NCBI RefSeq assembly: GCF_007474545.1
Contig: NZ_VKOG01000007.1
Location: 95,240 to 159,239 of the forward strand
Length of the DNA stretch: 64,000 bases
Direction of reading: 5' to 3'
Source: Chryseobacterium binzhouense
GTDB taxonomy: Bacteria > Bacteroidota > Bacteroidia > Flavobacteriales > Weeksellaceae
The notes beneath the pieces were generated by a model that was not told where the DNA came from, made no database searches, and saw only the letters and a program-made list of their open reading frames with translations. The position numbers and the translations under genes are program-made. Shown here in pieces: positions 12,979 to 23,939 of the stretch (the stretch's first letter is position 1; each line of letters opens with the position of its first letter).

Positions 12979-14295
12979 ATGAAACTGCAATCAGTAGATA
13001 AAATATATCTTATCAATAAAGAATCCCGAGTGAAAAGATGGTTTCTTTTCATCCTTCTTGGCGGTATTATCGTTTTATTTTTACCTTGGACGCAAAATAT
13101 CCAGGTTAAAGGAAATGTAAGCACGCTTTATCAGGAACAGCGTCCGCAGCAAATGAACTCACCAATTCCTGGAAGAATCATCAAATGGTATGTAAAAAAC
13201 GGTGATTATGTAAAAAAAGGAGATACCATTCTTCAGCTTTCCGAAGTAAAAGAAGATTATCTGGATCCGCTCTTGGTTAAACGAACCGAGCAGCAGGTAG
13301 AGGCAAAAAAAGGAGTAAGAGATTATTACGAAGCCAAAGTAGGAACTACAAACAGTCAGATTGACGCACTGAACTCTGCAAGAGATCTGAAACTGAGCCA
13401 GCTTAAAGTAAAAATAAGCCAGCTGAACAACAAATTAGAAGGTGAAGAAGCGGAATTACAGGCTGCAAGAAATGAGCTTCGAATGTCTGCTGACCAATAT
13501 GACCGACAGAAAAAAATGTATGATGAAGGCTTGGTTTCACTCACACAGTTCCAGCAAAGAAGTGTTTCTTACCAAAATGCTTTGGCAAAGAAAACATCCA
13601 TTGAAAATAAACTCGCTCAAACAAGACAGGAAATTGTAAACGTAAGCATTGAGCAGAATGCAACTATTCAGGATTATAATGAGAAACTAAGCAAAACGGA
13701 AGGTGACAGATTCCAGAGTATGGGACAAATTGAAGGCAGTGACGGCGATATTGCCAAACTTGAGAATCAGGTTGCCAATTACAGAGCAAGACAAGGTCTG
13801 TATTTCGTAATTGCTTCGCAGGATGGTCAGGTTGTACAGATCAATAAAGCTGGAATCGGTGAAATCCTTAAAGACGGTGAAAGTATAGGAGTAATTGTTC
13901 CTGAAAATGTAGATTATGCAGTAGAAATTTACATTAAACCCGTTGATTTGCCTTTGGTAAAAGAAGGACAGCGTGTGATGTGTATCTTTGATGGTTTTCC
14001 GGCAATTGTATTTTCGGGATGGCCCAACTCAAGCTACGGAACTTTTGCAGGGAAAGTAATTGCTGTAGAAAGCAACATCAGTACAAATGGTTTGTTTAAA
14101 GCACTTGTCATTCAGGATAAAGATGAAAAACAATGGCCGCCAAAAATTAAGATAGGAACCGGTGTTCAGGGAATTGCTATTTTAAATGATGTGCCGATCT
14201 GGTACGAATTGTGGCGAAACATCAACGGGTTCCCGCCTGATTATTACGAAGTGAACACAACTGATAAATCTGCAGGAAATGAAAAAAGTAAATAA
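12979..14295 (+). CDS. HlyD family periplasmic adaptor
   Basis: The 438-residue protein has one N-terminal membrane segment (about 21-38). A split biotinyl-lipoyl domain follows (NSPIPGRIIKWYVKNGDYV at about 55), then a long alpha-helical hairpin (about 95-250) and a beta-barrel/C-terminal region ending GFPPDYYEV. Membrane fusion proteins of this class join an inner-membrane ABC exporter to a TolC channel. It starts 4 bp after the ABC gene and overlaps the TolC gene by 17 bp, which indicates translational coupling and a fixed complex. Confidence 0.93.
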   Translation: MKLQSVDKIYLINKESRVKRWFLFILLGGIIVLFLPWTQNIQVKGNVSTLYQEQRPQQMNSPIPGRIIKWYVKNGDYVKKGDTILQLSEVKEDYLDPLLVKRTEQQVEAKKGVRDYYEAKVGTTNSQIDALNSARDLKLSQLKVKISQLNNKLEGEEAELQAARNELRMSADQYDRQKKMYDEGLVSLTQFQQRSVSYQNALAKKTSIENKLAQTRQEIVNVSIEQNATIQDYNEKLSKTEGDRFQSMGQIEGSDGDIAKLENQVANYRARQGLYFVIASQDGQVVQINKAGIGEILKDGESIGVIVPENVDYAVEIYIKPVDLPLVKEGQRVMCIFDGFPAIVFSGWPNSSYGTFAGKVIAVESNISTNGLFKALVIQDKDEKQWPPKIKIGTGVQGIAILNDVPIWYELWRNINGFPPDYYEVNTTDKSAGNEKSK

Positions 14296-15685
14296 ATTAT
14301 TTCCAGCTTTTCTAATTCTGTTTTCTATCCAGTTTTCTTTTGCGCAGGATTCTCTGAAACTGTCGCATCAGGAGTTTATGAATATTGTTAAAAATTACCA
14401 TCCGTTAGCTTTCAAATATCAGCTTCAAAACAGGATTGCCAGAGAAGAGATTACCAGCGCCAGAGGAAATTTCGATCCTGTAATTGCTGGAAAACTGGGC
14501 GAAAAAAATATTGACGGGACAAGATATTATTCCCAGAGAAATATTGAACTTGGTATTCCCACATGGTACGGGATAGACATTACAGGAAGCTACAATTATC
14601 TGGAAGGTCAAAAACTCAACAGCAGCGAAACACCGGGCGGGTTATACCAGTTCGGAATTACAGTTCCGTTAGCCAAAAATCTTTTGTATGACCGAAGAAG
14701 AGCCATGCTGGATCAGGCGAAATTCGGGTTGAGAATGACAGAAGCAGAACAGACGGTACTTACCAACGAACTTCTTTTAGATGCAGAAAATACGTTCTGG
14801 GAATGGGTAAAAAATTATGAAATATATAAGCTGCAAAAATCTGCCGTTCAGATCAATAGAAAACGTCTGGATCTAACAAAAAAAACATACGAGTTTGGCG
14901 AAAGACCGGCAATTGATACTGTTGAAGCCGCATCTCAGCTGCAGAGTTTTGAACTTCAGGAACGGGATGCTTTTTTGAACTTTGTAAAAAGTACCCAAGA
15001 TTTGCAGATGTTTCTCTGGAAAGAAAATCAGGAATTCTATGAAATTTCACAGCTCATTTTCCCATCATCAAGTCTGGATGAGCATTCAGGGTACAATGAT
15101 TATGAGTTCCTGGTAGAAAACGTAAAATCCAGACAGGTGGAAAATCATGCGTCATTGGAGTATTATTTTCAGAAACAAAACATTCTGGAAAGTGAACGGC
15201 GACTGAAATGGCAGAGCTTTCTTCCTAAAATAGATTTTACCTACAATTTTTTTAACAAAGAAAATTACAGACCAGATTATCTTCCTTTTTTTGATAATAA
15301 TTTTCAATACGGACTAAAACTGGAAATTCCTGTTTTCATGCGTCAGGCAAGAGCCGATTACCAGATTGCCAAACTGAAAATTTCGCAAAACCAACAGGAT
15401 TCGCAGCTGAAATTTCGAGAAATTAATACAAAAATTGAAACTTACAGAAACGAAGTAAGCAATTATTTTACCCAGATTGATATTTCATCCCAGAACCTCA
15501 ACAATTATGAGCGACTATTAAACGCTGAGGAAACAAGGTTCAGCAACGGTGAAAGTTCCTTATTTCTCATCAACTCAAGGGAAAACAAATTATTGGAAGC
15601 CCGTGAAAAAAACCTGGATCTGAAAGCCAAATTTCTAAAAAGCTATAACAAACTAAAATGGCTTAACGAGAATTTTTTAAGATAA
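14279..15685 (+). CDS. TolC family outer-membrane efflux protein
   Basis: The 468-residue protein has a signal peptide (1-22, ending FSFAQ). Two helical-barrel repeats follow: the first contains ITSARGNFDPVIAGKLGEKN and LAKNLLYDRRRAMLDQAK, the second FLPKIDFTYNFFNKEN and EIPVFMRQARADYQIAKLK. This is the usual TolC duplication. It forms the outer-membrane exit duct for the ABC-HlyD pair encoded directly upstream. The ATG lies inside the last codons of hlyD. The operon ends at the hairpin at 15706-15743. Confidence 0.93.
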   Translation: MKKVNKLFPAFLILFSIQFSFAQDSLKLSHQEFMNIVKNYHPLAFKYQLQNRIAREEITSARGNFDPVIAGKLGEKNIDGTRYYSQRNIELGIPTWYGIDITGSYNYLEGQKLNSSETPGGLYQFGITVPLAKNLLYDRRRAMLDQAKFGLRMTEAEQTVLTNELLLDAENTFWEWVKNYEIYKLQKSAVQINRKRLDLTKKTYEFGERPAIDTVEAASQLQSFELQERDAFLNFVKSTQDLQMFLWKENQEFYEISQLIFPSSSLDEHSGYNDYEFLVENVKSRQVENHASLEYYFQKQNILESERRLKWQSFLPKIDFTYNFFNKENYRPDYLPFFDNNFQYGLKLEIPVFMRQARADYQIAKLKISQNQQDSQLKFREINTKIETYRNEVSNYFTQIDISSQNLNNYERLLNAEETRFSNGESSLFLINSRENKLLEAREKNLDLKAKFLKSYNKLKWLNENFLR

Positions 15686-16680: not shown

Positions 16681-18237
16681 TCAGTTGGTCGTCATATCTG
16701 TCTTCCATTTGTACCAGTCATCAAGAAAATAGTCCAAAACTACAGGATTATCTATGGTATTGATCTTTGTGGAAACAATGCTGATGTCTTTAGGAAGTTC
16801 AAATGAATTGATAAAAACATTTTCGGTAAGAAATTTCAGATTCTCGGGAATTTTGCGATGTTTTTTTTCGTTAAAATCAGTATTTTTTGCAATAGTATAC
16901 CCCCAATATCCAAAAGAAGGCACGTAAACCTGATAGGTTTTGGTATAATTAAAAATAGAACTCACCGTATTTTTAATACAGCTGAAAGCCGTGTTAGAAT
17001 AATACACTTCTCCGGACTGCGTTACAAAAACTCCGTCTGCTTTCAGATTTCTTTTGGCAAGACCAAAAAACTGTTTGCTGTAAAGTTTTGCAATGGCATC
17101 AACAGAAGGATCAGGTAAATCTGCAATGATGACATCATATTCCTTAATATTGTTTTTCAGAAAAGTAAAAGCGTCATCAGCAACCAGATTTACTTTAGGA
17201 TTCAGAGAAGCTTTATCATTTATTTTTAGAAGATGTTTATTTTTTTTTGACAAATCGAACATCATCTGATCTATATCTACCACATCAACACTCTTCACAG
17301 TAGGGTGCTTCAGAACTTCCCGACTCGCCAGATTTTCACCGCCTCCAAGAATTAAAATATTTTCAGGATTATCATGAATCAGTAACGGAACGTGAACCAG
17401 CATTTCATGATAACGGTATTCATCTTTAGAGCTGAACTGTATTGAGCGGTTTAAAAAAAGCTTTACATCATCATTATTTTTTGTAATGACAATTTTCTGG
17501 TACGGTGTCTGAATGTTTTCTACAATCGGACTTTTATATATTTTTTCTTCCCATACTTTAAGCATTGATCCTGTAGTGACGACCATTACAATAAGAAAAG
17601 CCAAAACGAAAATTCCGAAATAAAAAGTTTTGTTTCTTTTCTTTAATAATTTCTGACTCAGCCAAAGCCCCAATACAATATTCACAATCCCAAAAAGAAG
17701 TGATGAATAAAACAGACCTACAAAAGGAAGCAGAATAAAAGGAAAAATAAGGGTGGCAATAAGCCCACCAATATAATCCAGCGACAAAAAATTGGAAAGA
17801 TTATCCTTATATTCTTCACTTTCATTCATAAAGGTAAGAAGCGGCACCTCCATTCCCGTAATTAATCCGATAAAAAACATGATCACCAGACAAAAAGCCT
17901 GTAATACTCCCGGACTTACATTCACAAAAAGAAAATAAAGAAGAGGAACTGAAATTCCGCCTATTAAACCCAAAATGACTTCAATAAAAACAAAAAAATC
18001 CAATGGCTTTTCTTTGAAAAATTTTGATAAATAAGCCCCAATTCCCATTGAAAACATATAAACACCTATGAGAATAGAAAACTGCATTACCCCATTACCA
18101 AGGAAGTACGTTGCAGTAGCACTGATGAGCAGCTCGTAAATAATTGAGCATAATCCTGCAACAAAAACTGAAAAAGCTAAAATTTTTATTTTCGGTTTCA
18201 AAATAATCTTTATATTTGATTTTAAACTTATTTCCAA
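16681..18237 (-). CDS. speE: Membrane-anchored polyamine aminopropyltransferase (spermidine synthase family)
   Basis: The 518-residue protein has two parts. Residues 1-225 hold about seven membrane helices, starting with AGLCSIIYELLISATATYFLG, the signature of membrane-bound spermidine synthases. Residues about 245-460 form the aminopropyltransferase domain: ILILGGGENLASREVLKHP (glycine loop, with GEN for the usual GDG), VDVVDIDQMM, and DVIIADLPDPS (active-site Asp). It would transfer aminopropyl from decarboxylated AdoMet to a diamine. The start is TTG at 18237; an in-frame stop seven codons upstream and the need to keep the first helix exclude an ATG. It is divergent from, and only 2 bp away from, the lipoprotein gene at 18240. 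The AdoMet decarboxylase needed to feed it is encoded 2.3 kb away in the same locus. Confidence 0.9.
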   Translation of the reverse strand: MEISLKSNIKIILKPKIKILAFSVFVAGLCSIIYELLISATATYFLGNGVMQFSILIGVYMFSMGIGAYLSKFFKEKPLDFFVFIEVILGLIGGISVPLLYFLFVNVSPGVLQAFCLVIMFFIGLITGMEVPLLTFMNESEEYKDNLSNFLSLDYIGGLIATLIFPFILLPFVGLFYSSLLFGIVNIVLGLWLSQKLLKKRNKTFYFGIFVLAFLIVMVVTTGSMLKVWEEKIYKSPIVENIQTPYQKIVITKNNDDVKLFLNRSIQFSSKDEYRYHEMLVHVPLLIHDNPENILILGGGENLASREVLKHPTVKSVDVVDIDQMMFDLSKKNKHLLKINDKASLNPKVNLVADDAFTFLKNNIKEYDVIIADLPDPSVDAIAKLYSKQFFGLAKRNLKADGVFVTQSGEVYYSNTAFSCIKNTVSSIFNYTKTYQVYVPSFGYWGYTIAKNTDFNEKKHRKIPENLKFLTENVFINSFELPKDISIVSTKINTIDNPVVLDYFLDDWYKWKTDMTTN

Positions 18238-18239
18238 AT

Positions 18240-18803
18240 ATGAAGAAAAATTCTTTTACTATTTCTATATTTTGTAAAAAAAATATTCTCTTCCCGGTAA
18301 TGGCATTCAGCCTGCTTAGTTTACAAAGCTGCGGCGGAGACGGGAGTCCCAGAATTAAAGACGGTGAATCGGTTACCATTAAAGAATCATCCAAAGGAAC
18401 AGTTACCGAGGTTGAAGAAGTAAAACCCGGTGATGATTTTAAAATTATTGATGAAAAAATCATTGACGATAAAACGAAATCTACCGCAATAGTACATTAT
18501 CTCAACGGAAAAACAGACACCCTGTCTCTTCAGAAACTGAAAAGTGAGTCACAATCCGGCAACCACACTCATTCAGCACTCAGAGGAGTATTAATGTATT
18601 CGCTTGCTTCTGCATTCTTCAGCAGAAATCTCGCCAACACAACTCCCAATTCAAGCTATTACAAAAGTGCAGATGCATATAACAAATCTACCGGTCTGAA
18701 AAATGATATGGTAAAAACAGCAACCTCCCGCAGAGTAATGACTCCGGGAAGAGCATCCAGAGGATACGGCGCAGGAAAATCTTTCAGATCTTATGGAGGA
18801 TAA
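18240..18803 (+). CDS. Small lipoprotein with Gly/Arg/Ser-rich tail ending in GG (YgiB/YjfM-like position)
   Basis: The 187-residue protein has a long lipoprotein signal with Cys31 (LLSLQSC) followed by GGDGS. The middle is charged (EVEEVKPGDDFKIIDEKI). A hydrophobic patch (LRGVLMYSLASAFFS) comes next, then a low-complexity tail with TPGRASRGYGAGKSFRSYGG at the very end. No Pfam family was recognised. The stop overlaps the start of the ATP-grasp gene by 11 bp. The pairing of a small lipoprotein with a glutathionylspermidine-synthase-like enzyme resembles E. coli ygiB-ygiC and yjfM-yjfC; the likeness in tail composition is from memory. I chose the ATG at 18240 over an upstream TTG because it starts a proper signal peptide. 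Confidence 0.8.
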   Translation: MKKNSFTISIFCKKNILFPVMAFSLLSLQSCGGDGSPRIKDGESVTIKESSKGTVTEVEEVKPGDDFKIIDEKIIDDKTKSTAIVHYLNGKTDTLSLQKLKSESQSGNHTHSALRGVLMYSLASAFFSRNLANTTPNSSYYKSADAYNKSTGLKNDMVKTATSRRVMTPGRASRGYGAGKSFRSYGG

Positions 18804-19941
18804 CAGGTTTCAGGAAATAAAAAAGATCCGCAAAAAAGATATGCCGGTTCAGCTGCAGTGGTTTGCAGATGAAGATTATCTGTTTGAAGAAGTATTGGGT
18901 CTTCATACTTCTGAGGTCAGCAAATTTACCTTCATCGCACAGGAAGCGTATTCAGTTTTTGAAAAAGCGACTGATAAAATCATTCGGGACAGAAATCTCC
19001 ATCTTTTGGATATCCCGCAGTTTTTCCATGGAATCATTGAAAAAACATGGAATGACAGAAAAAAGCATCCTCTTTTGTACGGAAGATTTGACATCAATGG
19101 CGGAATTGATGAAAGAAACGCAAAAGTTATCGAATTCAATGCAGACACCTGCTCAACTCTCCCTGAAACCATTTTATGGCAAAAACTTCAGCTGGAACAT
19201 ATCAAATCTCCGATGGGGCAGTTGAATAGACTGGAGCGCGATCTTGAAAGCACACTTTCAGATCTTAAGAAAAATATCCCGTACGAAAAACCCTATTTTT
19301 TGGCATCTTCATTTGGTCACAAAGAAGACAGGCTCAACTGTGATATGGTTCTGAACGCTGCGTATAAAGCAGGTTATGATGTTTTTTATACTGATTTGGA
19401 AAAAGTAACATTTTCTGACGAAGGCATTTTCTTTGAAATTGGCGGAGAGTTTCAGCCTGTAGATGTCTGGTTTAAAATGGTTCCGTGGGACTGGATGTTC
19501 AACGAAGAACCTGAACTCGCAAAGCTGCTTATCGAAATTATTGAAAAAGATCTGGCAATTATTCTTAATCCTCCATACACCGCTGTATGGCAGAATAAAT
19601 TATTTCTGAATTACATTACCCAGCATTTCCCCAATACTTTTATTGCAGAAACTTACGACAGTTCTTCCTTTCTTGCAGGAAAAGACTATGTAGAAAAACC
19701 TGTTTACGGAAGAATGGGAGAAAATGTAAAAATTGTGCATAAAAACATTCAGTCTGAAGGAGATTTTGCAGGACAGAAAAAAATCTATCAGCGATATTAT
19801 CCTTTAGATAAGGATCGGGAAAACTACTATTATCAGGCAGGCATTTTTTATACTTTCCAGCCATCTGCCATTAATTTCAGAGCAGAAAACAGAGAAATCA
19901 TTACCAATAATTGTGAATTTGTATCACATTATATCATTTAA
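18793..19941 (+). CDS. Glutathionylspermidine synthase-like ATP-grasp ligase (YgiC/YjfC type)
   Basis: The 382-residue protein matches the GSP_synth family. It has GRFDINGG and KVIEFNADTCSTLPETILWQ near residues 95-125, FLASSFGHKEDRLNCD, VWFKMVPWDWMFNEEP, LNPPYTAVWQNKLFL, KPVYGRMGENVKIV, and a C-terminal YYYQAGIFYTFQPSAINFRAE. It has only the ATP-grasp synthetase part and lacks the amidase domain of bifunctional E. coli Gsp. The true substrates of stand-alone members are not settled. The reaction class is amide bond formation between a carboxylate and an amine, with ATP cleavage. Its place between lipoprotein genes, with aminopropyltransferase and AdoMet decarboxylase, points to a polyamine as the amine. 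It has no signal peptide, so it is cytosolic. Confidence 0.9.
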   Translation: MEDNRFQEIKKIRKKDMPVQLQWFADEDYLFEEVLGLHTSEVSKFTFIAQEAYSVFEKATDKIIRDRNLHLLDIPQFFHGIIEKTWNDRKKHPLLYGRFDINGGIDERNAKVIEFNADTCSTLPETILWQKLQLEHIKSPMGQLNRLERDLESTLSDLKKNIPYEKPYFLASSFGHKEDRLNCDMVLNAAYKAGYDVFYTDLEKVTFSDEGIFFEIGGEFQPVDVWFKMVPWDWMFNEEPELAKLLIEIIEKDLAIILNPPYTAVWQNKLFLNYITQHFPNTFIAETYDSSSFLAGKDYVEKPVYGRMGENVKIVHKNIQSEGDFAGQKKIYQRYYPLDKDRENYYYQAGIFYTFQPSAINFRAENREIITNNCEFVSHYII

Positions 19942-19951
19942 AATTAAAAAC

Positions 19952-20557
19952 ATGAAAAATATATTCTTAATACTTTTTGCAGCCTTTGCATTGTGTTCCT
20001 GCGGAAAAGGAAGTGTAGATCTTGCTATTGATAATCCTACCGATCATTCAATAATTGTAAAAGTAGACACCCTTACAGTAGAAGTTCCCGCAAAAGAAGT
20101 GGTATGGGTAGAAATGGGAAAAGGTGAACATCTTATAACCTTGGAAGACAATACTAAAACAAAATACAATTTTACCCAGAATGCCTATTTTCTTAATCCG
20201 ACCAGAAATGAATATCTGAAAACTGAAGAATTCTATGGAAGTCCTTCTTTTCAGAACAGTTATGCGCATAAACTTCCCAATAAAAAAATAGAATTTTACG
20301 GAATGCCGCTTGAAGGAAATTTCGATGTGGTAAAAGACCTTATCAATCCTATCTCATGGGATTACGGACCGAGAGAAGAGCTGCCGGAAATGCTTGAAAT
20401 GGAAGAACAATATGAGGTTATGGTCAAATTATATGACCTGAATGAGTTTGCCAACTTAATTACCAGAGCGTCTGAAGAAGCACAACTCAACAGCGAAGAT
20501 TCAATATCTTCCGACAGCATCAATGCAGCGCCGCCCGTAAGCCAATCTACCAACTAA
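19952..20557 (+). CDS. Lipoprotein of unknown function in the polyamine locus
   Basis: The 201-residue protein has a short lipoprotein signal (MKNIFLILFAAFALCSC, Cys17) followed by GKGS. The next 90 residues look like a small beta-sandwich (VDLAIDNPTDHSIIVKVDTL, VPAKEVVWVEMGKGEHLI). The C-terminal third is acidic and helical (REELPEMLEMEEQYE), ending in a Ser/Asn-rich tail. No family was recognised. It starts 10 bp after the ATP-grasp gene and ends 1 bp before the AdoMet decarboxylase gene, so it belongs to the same message. The ATG at 19952 begins the signal peptide; upstream starts do not. Confidence 0.8.
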   Translation: MKNIFLILFAAFALCSCGKGSVDLAIDNPTDHSIIVKVDTLTVEVPAKEVVWVEMGKGEHLITLEDNTKTKYNFTQNAYFLNPTRNEYLKTEEFYGSPSFQNSYAHKLPNKKIEFYGMPLEGNFDVVKDLINPISWDYGPREELPEMLEMEEQYEVMVKLYDLNEFANLITRASEEAQLNSEDSISSDSINAAPPVSQSTN

Positions 20558-20558
20558 T

Positions 20559-20942
20559 ATGATTTCAGATTATCATACCATCGGCTACCATACGATTTGG
20601 GATATTTACGGATGTAATATTCAGAAGTCATCTTTTGTTCCGGAAATAAAAATAATTCTCAACAAAGTTGTTGAAGAGTTAAAGTTGGGGAAAGTGCAGG
20701 AAGCATATAAACAGTTTCAGCCATTTGGTGCAACAGGCTTTATCTTGTTGGAAGAAAGCCACATCAGCATTCATACATGGCCAGAAAAAGAGTTTGCTGC
20801 AATAGATGTATTTTCCTGTAAGCCTTTTGATACGGAAAAAATTAATTCTATTTTAAAAGATTTTTTTGAAACTGACGAGATCAATACGAAGGTCATTACA
20901 AGAGGTGAACTTACCAGGATGAAAACTGCAAGTCCGAACTGA
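20559..20942 (+). CDS. speD: S-adenosylmethionine decarboxylase proenzyme (pyruvoyl type)
   Basis: The enzyme cleaves itself and uses the resulting pyruvoyl group to decarboxylate AdoMet, giving the aminopropyl donor for polyamine synthesis. The 127-residue length fits the short class 1B form. The site is EESHISIHTWPE: cleavage is expected between Glu66 and Ser67, with His72 and Cys87 (VFSCKPF) as the partner residues. The spacings Ser+5=His and Ser+20=Cys equal those of the Thermotoga maritima enzyme (Ser63, His68, Cys83). It is the last gene of the lipoprotein/ATP-grasp/lipoprotein/speD operon and ends at the terminator at 20970. Confidence 0.95.
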   Translation: MISDYHTIGYHTIWDIYGCNIQKSSFVPEIKIILNKVVEELKLGKVQEAYKQFQPFGATGFILLEESHISIHTWPEKEFAAIDVFSCKPFDTEKINSILKDFFETDEINTKVITRGELTRMKTASPN

Positions 20943-21075: not shown

Positions 21076-22962
21076 ATGACTAAAGGAAATATTAATGTTT
21101 CAGTGGAAAACATTTTTCCGTTGATTAAGAAATTTCTTTACAGCGATCACGAAATATTTTTAAGAGAATTAATTTCCAATGCAACAGATGCAACTCTTAA
21201 ATTGAAACATCTAACCTCAATTGGTGAAGCAAAGGTAGAGTACGGAAATCCTAAAATTGAAGTGAAGATTGATAAAGAAAACAAAAAACTTCATATCATT
21301 GATCAGGGAATCGGGATGACCGGCGAAGAAGTGGAAAAATACATCAATCAGGTAGCTTTTTCGGGTGCTGAAGAATTTTTAGAAAAATACAAAGATTCTG
21401 CTAAAGATTCAGGAATTATCGGGCATTTCGGACTTGGTTTTTATTCTGCATTTATGGTGGCAGAAAAAGTAGAAATCATTTCTAAATCTTATAAAGACGA
21501 ACCGGCTGTACACTGGGTTTGTGACGGAAGTCCTGAGTTTACTTTAGAAGAGACAACTGCAAAAACTGACAGAGGAACAGAAATTATTCTTCATATTGCT
21601 GAAGATTCTACCGAATTTTTAGAAGAATTCAGAATCCGTGAATTACTGACCAAATACAACAAATTCATGCCTGTTCCAATTAAATTCGGAACAAAAAAAG
21701 AAACGCTTCCTTTACCTGAAGGAGCAGCAGAAGATGCGGTTGCAGAAACTGTTGACGTTGATAATATTATTAACAATCCTACTCCGGCGTGGACAAATGC
21801 TCCAAGTGAATTAAAAGACGAAGACTACAAATCGTTTTACCATGAGCTGTATCCTATGCAGTTTGAAGAGCCTTTATTTAATATTCACCTGAATGTAGAT
21901 TATCCTTTCAATCTCACAGGTATTTTATATTTCCCAAAACTCAGCAATAATCTGAATATTGAAAAAGACAAAATTCAGCTTTATCAGAATCAGGTTTTTG
22001 TAACGGATGAGGTAAAAGGCATTGTTCCTGACTTTTTGATGCTGCTTCGCGGAGTTATAGATTCTCCGGATATCCCGTTGAATGTTTCCAGATCTTATCT
22101 TCAGGCAGATGGTGCGGTAAAGAAAATTTCTTCTTACATCACCAAAAAAGTTGCCGACAAAATGGTTTCATTGATTAATGAAAACCGCGAAGATTACGAG
22201 AAAAAATGGAATGACATTAAGATCGTTATTGAATACGGAATGATTTCTGAAGAAAAATTCTTCGAAAAATCAGACAAATTTGCATTATATCCTACCAGCG
22301 AAGGCAAATATTTCCTCTGGAACGAACTGGAAGAAAAAATAAAACCGATACAAACCGACAAAGACGGCAATCTGGTAATTTTATATTCTACCAATGCAGA
22401 CGAGCAGCATTCTTACATTCAGTCGGCTAAAGATAAAGGCTATGAAGTACTGTTATTAGACTCTCCTATTGTTCCTCATCTTATTCAAAAACTGGAAACA
22501 TCTAAAGAGAAGATCCAGTTTGCAAGAGTGGATGCAGACCACATCAATAATCTGATTAAAAAAGATGAGCCTGTTATCTCAAAACTCAACGAAACAGAGA
22601 AAGAATCTTTAAAGAAAACGGTTGAAGAATCTATCAATGATAAAAAATTCACCGTACAGCTTGAAGATTTAGACAGTACAGATGCTCCTTTCACTATTAC
22701 CCAGCCTGAGTTTATGCGCAGAATGAAAGACATGCAGGCGACAGGAGGCGGCGGAATGTTCGGAATGGGAGGTTTTCCTGAAATGTACAATTTGGTGGTA
22801 AACTCCAACAGTGAGTTTGCTTCAAAAATTTTAGCAAACGAAAATGCTGAAGAAAAGAATAATCAGATAAAATACGCTTTGGATCTCGCAAAATTATCGC
22901 AGAATTTGCTGAAAGGTAAAGAACTTACGGATTTTATCCAGAGAAGTTATAAGCAGCTATAA
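21076..22962 (+). CDS. htpG: Molecular chaperone HtpG (Hsp90)
   Basis: The 628-residue protein is the bacterial Hsp90, an ATP-driven cytosolic chaperone dimer. The N-terminal ATPase domain shows FLRELISNATDATLKL (ATP-site Asn/Asp), IDQGIGMTGEEV and GHFGLGFYSAFMVA. The middle domain holds YPFNLTGILYFPKL and LLRGVIDSPDIPLNVSRSYLQ with the catalytic-loop Arg. The C-terminal dimer region ends RSYKQL. A Gly/Met-rich stretch (ATGGGGMFGMGGFPEMY) near residue 560 is a flexible hydrophobic loop. The gene is single, between the speD terminator and its own strong hairpin. Confidence 0.98.
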   Translation: MTKGNINVSVENIFPLIKKFLYSDHEIFLRELISNATDATLKLKHLTSIGEAKVEYGNPKIEVKIDKENKKLHIIDQGIGMTGEEVEKYINQVAFSGAEEFLEKYKDSAKDSGIIGHFGLGFYSAFMVAEKVEIISKSYKDEPAVHWVCDGSPEFTLEETTAKTDRGTEIILHIAEDSTEFLEEFRIRELLTKYNKFMPVPIKFGTKKETLPLPEGAAEDAVAETVDVDNIINNPTPAWTNAPSELKDEDYKSFYHELYPMQFEEPLFNIHLNVDYPFNLTGILYFPKLSNNLNIEKDKIQLYQNQVFVTDEVKGIVPDFLMLLRGVIDSPDIPLNVSRSYLQADGAVKKISSYITKKVADKMVSLINENREDYEKKWNDIKIVIEYGMISEEKFFEKSDKFALYPTSEGKYFLWNELEEKIKPIQTDKDGNLVILYSTNADEQHSYIQSAKDKGYEVLLLDSPIVPHLIQKLETSKEKIQFARVDADHINNLIKKDEPVISKLNETEKESLKKTVEESINDKKFTVQLEDLDSTDAPFTITQPEFMRRMKDMQATGGGGMFGMGGFPEMYNLVVNSNSEFASKILANENAEEKNNQIKYALDLAKLSQNLLKGKELTDFIQRSYKQL

Positions 22963-23294: not shown

Positions 23295-23939
23295 AACCTG
23301 AGTTCGGGATAAGAAAAGTGAATAAAATTTTCATAAAATAGCAATAATTCGTATATTTAAGTTTCTGACATTCAAATATTTAAACGAATTACTGCTATGG
23401 ATTTGAAAGACCAAATTACAAATATTTTTGTACAAATTGATGATTTTTGTAAGGAGTTTGAGGTTTTATGGCTTCAAATTACATCTGGTATGCAATGAAA
23501 AAGGGGAACTTTTATCCTTCTATGTAACGAAAGGAAATGTTGACGACAGAGATCTTAAGCACATTAAGAGTATGACCATGCAGCTTTTTGGAAAATTATT
23601 TGCAGATAAAGGATACCTTTCAAAAGCCCTTTGGGAGGTGCTTTTTGCAGATGGAATTCAACTATTTACAAAACTTAGAAAGAATATGAAAAATCATATT
23701 ATGAAAATGGAAGACAAGATTTTGCTTAGAAAAAGAGCCATCATTGAGACTATAAATGATGAATTAAAAAACCATTGTCAAGTAGAACATACCAGACATC
23801 GAAGTGTTAATAATTTTATGATCAACATTTTGGGAGCACTAACTGCTTATTGCTTCTTTCCCAAAAAACCGTCACTCAATTTAAAAAAAGTAAATGACGG
23901 TCAATTATTTTTAAACTTCGCTTAAACCGAACTCAGGTT
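23295..23939 (+). mobile_element. IS982-family element, internally deleted (645 bp)
   Basis: The ends are inverted: AACCTGAGTTCGG at 23295 and its complement CCGAACTCAGGTT ending at 23939, with further matching TAAG inside. The element contains one transposase remnant on the plus strand. At 645 bp it is clearly shorter than the roughly 1 kb usual for IS982 members, in agreement with a gap inside the transposase. It should be unable to move by itself but keeps both ends and could be moved by a full copy elsewhere. Confidence 0.92.
23397..23925 (+). pseudogene. IS982-family transposase remnant
   Basis: An ATG at 23397 starts MDLKDQITNIFVQIDDFCKE, the normal N-terminus. Around 23462 it jumps, in another frame, to the catalytic C-terminal half: YGFKLHLVCNEKGELLSFYVTKGNVDDRD, LFADKGYLSKALWEVL, and ERAIIET-like KRAIIETINDELKNHCQVEHTRHRSVNNF. 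About 330-350 bp from the middle, including the first part of the DDE domain, are missing. The remaining 165-codon frame from 23428 has no proper start. Not functional. Confidence 0.9.

Follow-up and report, generated by a model that had tools for sequence, protein, structure and literature searches.

A gene cluster of Chryseobacterium binzhouense that may serve C-terminal polyamine tagging of an envelope lipoprotein

The putative polyamine-ligase locus described here occupies positions 16681 to 20942 of a stretch of 64,000 nucleotides from Chryseobacterium binzhouense (contig NZ_VKOG01000007.1), hereafter the window, and contains five genes. A membrane aminopropyltransferase, a PRK03612-type "spermidine synthase" carrying membrane segments at its N-terminus, lies on the minus strand (16681..18237) and is divergent from a plus-strand pair formed by lipoprotein 1, the candidate substrate (18240..18803; lipobox LQSC, C-terminus RSYGG), and a stand-alone ATP-grasp ligase of the GSP_synth family (PF03738) resembling YgiC and YjfC (18793..19941; 382 amino acids (aa), without an amidase domain). 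On the same strand these are followed, after 10 base pairs (bp), by lipoprotein 2, an accessory protein (19952..20557; 201 aa counted from an internal ATG) and, after 1 bp, by an AdoMet decarboxylase (AdoMetDC) of the B. subtilis type, the source of the aminopropyl donor (20559..20942). The TTG start of the aminopropyltransferase, an uncertain start codon, falls 2 bp from the ATG of lipoprotein 1. Lipoprotein 1 and the ligase overlap by 11 bp (18793..18803, plus strand), where GGA GGA TAA (Gly-Gly-stop) is read as ATG GAG GAT (Met-Glu-Asp) in the ligase frame. The candidate acceptor tail, PGRASRGYGAGKSFRSYGG-COOH, corresponds to the last 19 residues of lipoprotein 1 (18744..18800, plus strand). 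Reading frames and gaps were re-derived and agreed with the clustering and spacing given in a first-pass annotation of this DNA.

The ligase matched PF03738 with 223.4 bits (cut-off 29.3; 6.7e-66) over profile positions 18-371 of 371, which places it in the GSP_synth family, and it had the same fold as the YgiC/YjfC-type peptide-spermidine ligases. Residues R98, D100, E114, N116, E178/D179, K269, K302, G309, Q333, and R363 were invariant in 22 ligase sequences including YgiC and YjfC. Ligase fold and invariant ATP-grasp residues are also common to the bifunctional glutathionylspermidine synthetase/amidase GspSA, but the window ligase was rejected as such an enzyme in view of its 382 aa, the lack of an amidase match and a score of 81.8 bits against the 882 of NF007801. 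AdoMetDC (PF02675, 9.8e-29) and the aminopropyltransferase (PF01564, 3.4e-48) both scored as equivalogs of their families (100.5 bits for TIGR03330, cut-off 75.65, and 536.5 bits for PRK03612, cut-off 472, respectively). Neither lipoprotein gave a match above cut-off in Pfam or NCBIfam scans.

Nine related loci (L019-L027) were retrieved via ligase similarity from Chryseobacterium, Flavobacterium, Cellulophaga, Maribacter, and Winogradskyella, the nearest being that of C. echinoideorum (ligase identity 95%); adjacency of lipoprotein 1 and ligase is present in this set by construction and is not a test. All five genes occurred in 9/9 of these loci, indicating that their grouping in the window exceeds chance. 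The tight plus-strand operon of four genes proposed in the first-pass annotation held for the window but was not general, as lipoprotein 2 and AdoMetDC were on the other strand in seven of the nine loci (L021-L027) and only the lipoprotein 1-ligase pair kept its order. Only one search was driven by the lipoprotein itself: a profile of lipoprotein 1, run against 395 genomes of the order, matched two, namely the own genome and G711; the ligase overlapped lipoprotein 1 in both, and the G711 copy ended in RSYGG and overlapped a PF03738 gene by 11 bp. A PF03738 gene was present in 18 genomes, the own one included, among 59 relatives, and the other 17 scored near 1e-143, corresponding to a different ligase type from that of the window. 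No match to lipoprotein 2 was obtained in loci L074/L075. In loci of another Chryseobacterium GSP_synth type (L002-L018), the ligase adjoined a lipoprotein of about 110 aa with an end resembling RGGLGRSGFRASS; the loci read also contained a second lipoprotein with the end YEFYITVQ or similar.

The terminal glycine, whose conservation had been set beforehand as a check that could refute the proposal, was retained: all 11 homologues of lipoprotein 1 (window, L019-L027, and L204) ended in GG. The consensus GYGxGKSFRSxGG (one position being K or R) was obtained from 10 aligned sequences, and the G711 variant ended in SGFGSKSSSTSRSGFRSTRSYGG. Since the GG-stop overlaps the ligase ATG in the window family, other families were needed to judge the terminal GG.

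For this purpose 84 ligase loci, short copies excluded, were grouped into 41 clusters at 60% identity, covering Bacteroidota, Pseudomonadota, Actinomycetota, Deinococcota, Cyanobacteriota, and Bacillota; plasmids were sampled as 24 records chosen for variety out of two lists (146 and 158 matching records). A tail composed of an RGGFG-like motif, then about 5-25 residues and a last residue G, S or A was assigned beside the ligase in 38/41 clusters, with G as the last residue in 23, S in 12, and A in three, and a GG end in 21. The earlier proposal that the Gly-Gly end may be the carboxylate substrate was thus partly supported, by the GG ends of the window family and of unrelated partners such as YgiB and YjfM, whereas a terminal Gly was not general; in the loci read, the lipoprotein beside the other Chryseobacterium ligase type ended in ASS. 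A composition screen blind to the last residue was passed by 29/299 same-strand frames near the ligase vs. 5/1508 elsewhere (about 30-fold; 2/624, 2/615, and 1/269 in the other frame classes), this background being the other frames of the loci read. The last residue of these frames was G in 18, S in eight, A in one, and L in two (L093, L108), the L-ended pair apparently being wrong frames. A set of 970 longer frames from 83 loci, which included several members of some clusters, contained 23 GG-ended frames, and 21 of these were ligase partners.

As the first-pass annotation had pointed out, the E. coli relatives YgiC and YjfC adjoin the small lipoproteins YgiB and YjfM. YgiB ends in RSMGG and ygiC starts 5 bp after ygiB; YjfM ends in GHWGG (full end SRGGYGRSSSARGHWGG) and yjfC starts 2 bp after yjfM, so that both pairs present GG ends without gene overlap. 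The window ligase was 24-25% identical to YgiC/YjfC, whereas the body of lipoprotein 1 showed no detectable relationship with the E. coli DUF1190 bodies (profile-profile probability 2%) and, without a DUF1190 match in the Pfam and NCBIfam scans, lipoprotein 1 is not a member of that family; a further difference from the E. coli pairs is that the window has an AdoMetDC and a membrane aminopropyltransferase of its own. After trimming of their 40 C-terminal residues, the 38 partner proteins fell into 11 phmmer groups. Profile-profile comparison of bodies gave 99.6% for the window vs. Cytophagia families (already one phmmer group), 65% for a Chryseobacterium family vs. L107, 50% for a 10-column match, and at most 34% for the rest. 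The tail thus appears to recur on partner proteins mostly unrelated in body, distant kinship of some groups being possible.

Some partners and ligases were observed in other arrangements. On a Roseomonas plasmid (L111, 3926-6276), two GSP_synth ligases lay in tandem ahead of DUF350 and DUF1190. The tail protein of Pseudarthrobacter (SRGGFGGTAKGGSGS; L098, 3501-3998) was labelled tRNA-dihydrouridine synthase, a label that looks wrong. Tail proteins of about 460 aa forming one family lay beside divergent GSP_synth ligases in distant genomes of the phylum (L078, L082-L084, L086); two members scanned gave no Pfam match, and an apparent DUF350 was seen nearby by eye in several of these loci.

The tail was also examined in 30 clusters with a membrane aminopropyltransferase and no ligase in the stretch read (L139-L141, L143-L145, L179-L202). 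A similar tail ending in Lys occurred in 14/30, the background of terminal K being 13%. With one type of aminopropyltransferase (L143-L145, L179-L186) a Lys-ended tail protein was found in 11/11 cases, with ends RSRSGGFGK or the variants GSGFGK, GGSGGK, SGSFGK, and SRGFGK; the carrier was one lipoprotein family in 10 of them and a DUF4178 protein in L184, and neighbours in these stretches were DUF4178 (11), DUF350 (9), AdoMetDC (6), and PspA (6). In nine sequences of this lipoprotein family the final GK was invariant, with a mean column identity of 50%. Three further GK-ended tails belonged to an Alteromonas lipoprotein (SSGK, L200) and to small proteins of 78 aa (L187) and 76 aa (L190), although it is uncertain whether the L190 frame belongs to its cluster. 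PF03738 was found in none of the 13 genomes behind L143-L145, L179-L187, and L190 by a search that did detect the G711 ligase. The last residue of the tail therefore follows the enzyme present, being G, S or A beside a ligase and K where only the aminopropyltransferase is found. Other ligase-less clusters (L139-L141, L188, L189, L191-L197) combined AdoMetDC and membrane aminopropyltransferase, often with DUF350, and contained no Gly-rich tailed lipoprotein; L139-L141 encoded a membrane protein of about 490 aa (DUF4178 by Pfam in L139) with similar ends KWxNSSNSPY.

Gene anatomy, conservation, the tail shared across families and the G/S/A vs. K split are directly supported by these data. The ordinary part of the locus is a YjfC-type ligase adjoining a lipoprotein; the unusual part is the recurrent acceptor-like tail. 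Taken together, the sequences make it reasonably probable that the locus serves to tag an envelope lipoprotein with polyamine at its C-terminus, the tail being the acceptor on which the ligase forms the polyamine amide. GspS acts on glutathione, whose glycine carboxylate it activates and links to spermidine. By analogy, lipoprotein 1 would offer its Gly/Ser/Arg/Lys-rich tail with a free terminal Gly carboxylate, and the ligase would bind this tail, activate the carboxylate with ATP and couple it to a polyamine amine. As the ligase is cytosolic, coupling would be expected before export. The amine would be supplied, or extended by aminopropyl transfer, through AdoMetDC and the membrane aminopropyltransferase; after export and lipidation the lipoprotein would present a polycationic end at a membrane surface. 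DUF350, PspA, and ion-channel neighbours of tailed proteins point to the membrane for the role of the tail.

Since similar tails sit next to related ligases on proteins that otherwise have mostly no relationship, YgiB, YjfM, and the other tailed partners are candidate natural substrates of the ligase family. More speculatively, in the ligase-less clusters the aminopropyltransferase could aminopropylate the terminal Lys of the tail directly, which would fit a suggestion in PMC11237479 (mSystems 2024) that other substrates are aminopropylated. We can only tentatively extend this to a general bacterial C-terminal polyamine system acting on envelope proteins with one tail signal and two chemistries, in which G/S/A tails would be amidated by YgiC/YjfC-type ligases and GGFGK-type tails aminopropylated on the terminal Lys by membrane-fused aminopropyltransferases.

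Parts of the proposal have precedents. The statement in the first-pass annotation that YgiC and YjfC have no settled product is out of date, as citing literature refers to them as peptide-spermidine ligases (Pederick 2023) and PMC12568646 calls them peptidylpolyamine synthetases. No protein substrate was stated for either in the portions of the literature covered, and an earlier proposal of YgiB and YjfM as substrates is possible. Operons with PspA, DUF350, AdoMetDC, and membrane spermidine synthase are described in PMC11237479 (and, as cited there, by Li et al. 2019), with DUF1190 regarded as metal-chelating; enzyme set and lipoprotein neighbours are the same as here, but the passages covered mention neither a C-terminal tail nor an acceptor site. 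PMC12270671 reports SUMO bearing spermidine on its C-terminal carboxylate, together with ubiquitin-spermidine conjugates; as in our proposal, spermidine is in amide linkage to a protein end with C-terminal Gly-Gly, although those conjugates are made by E1/E2 enzymes in eukaryotes and not by an ATP-grasp ligase. If correct, the proposal would describe a modification of protein C-termini in bacteria that parallels the SUMO-spermidine conjugates published in 2025, name natural substrates for YgiC/YjfC and the missing acceptor of the membrane aminopropyltransferase fusions, and connect polyamines with the envelope clusters of PspA and DUF350. YgiB and YjfM are singled out by the shared tail, and the E. 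coli pairs, whose ligases occur in laboratory strains, make the idea directly checkable.

Several observations weigh against C-terminal tagging. In the window family the tail was only modestly more conserved than the body (10/15 columns ahead of the last three vs. 65/141 body columns invariant in the 10-sequence alignment A1), and both terminal glycines lie within the overlap with the ligase start, which is a confounder. Across phyla the final assignment of tail partners was made partly by eye, the scripted screens alone giving 26/41 clusters (motif plus G/S/A end) and 27/41 (composition only); within the stretch read no tail partner was found for clusters L112, L080, and L076, nor for L070 and L085, members of two other clusters. 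The terminal residue differs (G, S, A), so that the ligase would need tolerance, and low-complexity tails can arise often. Such a tail was absent from the stretch read in 16/30 ligase-less aminopropyltransferase clusters, among them at least two (L141, L198) whose genomes have a ligase at another place. Finally, the scheme would need a cytosolic ligase to act ahead of Sec export.

The alternative that survives best, although we regard it as unlikely, is that the ligase product is a small, free conjugate of peptide and polyamine resembling glutathionylspermidine, which the tailed lipoprotein merely binds, senses or transports. Family name and fold derive from GspS, an enzyme with a small-molecule product, and a small thiol is possible in the own genome, which contains a gene of the GCS2 family (glutamate-cysteine ligase type; 2.9e-65), although its sole GSH-S_ATP match was weak and partial. 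In a binding protein one would expect a conserved body, whereas the partner bodies are mostly unrelated and it is the last 20 or so residues that recur; moreover, a 2025 paper states that YgiC has no GspS activity. Modification of the tail carboxylate with an amino acid, an amino sugar or another non-polyamine amine, the polyamine genes serving elsewhere, appears improbable. ATP-grasp folds use many amines, and neither AdoMetDC nor aminopropyltransferase was listed nearby in any of 22 annotated ligase plasmid stretches (two more were unannotated), but both enzymes lie beside the ligase in the window, in L019-L027 and in L074/L075, and the reported peptide-spermidine ligase activity of YgiC/YjfC also argues for a polyamine.

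Even less credit is given to the tail as an unmodified sorting or assembly signal, for instance for outer-membrane placement or for binding DUF350/PspA-type partners: DUF350, PspA, and ion-channel genes do occur in several clusters, but tails also accompany ligases in places where neither DUF350 nor PspA was noted in the surroundings (window, L019-L027 and, by annotation, L107 and L115), and the last residue changes from G/S/A to K where only the aminopropyltransferase is present. Equally little credit is given to the Gly-Gly end as a by-product, either imposed by the ligase start codon, with which the window-family GGAGGATAA has an 11-bp overlap, or simply part of a common Gly-rich lipoprotein tail of low complexity; against this stand the GG ends of the non-overlapping E. 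coli pairs, the enrichment of tails beside ligases and the share of ligase partners among GG-ended frames.

Concerning the polyamine required for C-terminal tagging, AdoMetDC of the window was the only PF02675 match in the own genome and its aminopropyltransferase the only strong PF01564 match. A possible diamine source outside the window is an arginine-decarboxylase-like gene on contig C1, which scored 161.6 bits, below the speA cut-off of 369. Membrane fusions of the aminopropyltransferase type reportedly failed to replace spermidine synthase, spermidine being absent. Given the aminopropylation of other substrates suggested in PMC11237479 and the Lys-ended tails of ligase-less clusters, the window enzyme may not make free spermidine.

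Around the locus, an HSP90 (HtpG) gene was located directly downstream of AdoMetDC (21076-22962). Judged by eye, a frame at 23428-23925 resembled an insertion sequence (IS) transposase remnant, and frames at 12979-15685 resembled an HlyD-type adaptor and a TolC-type outer-membrane protein.

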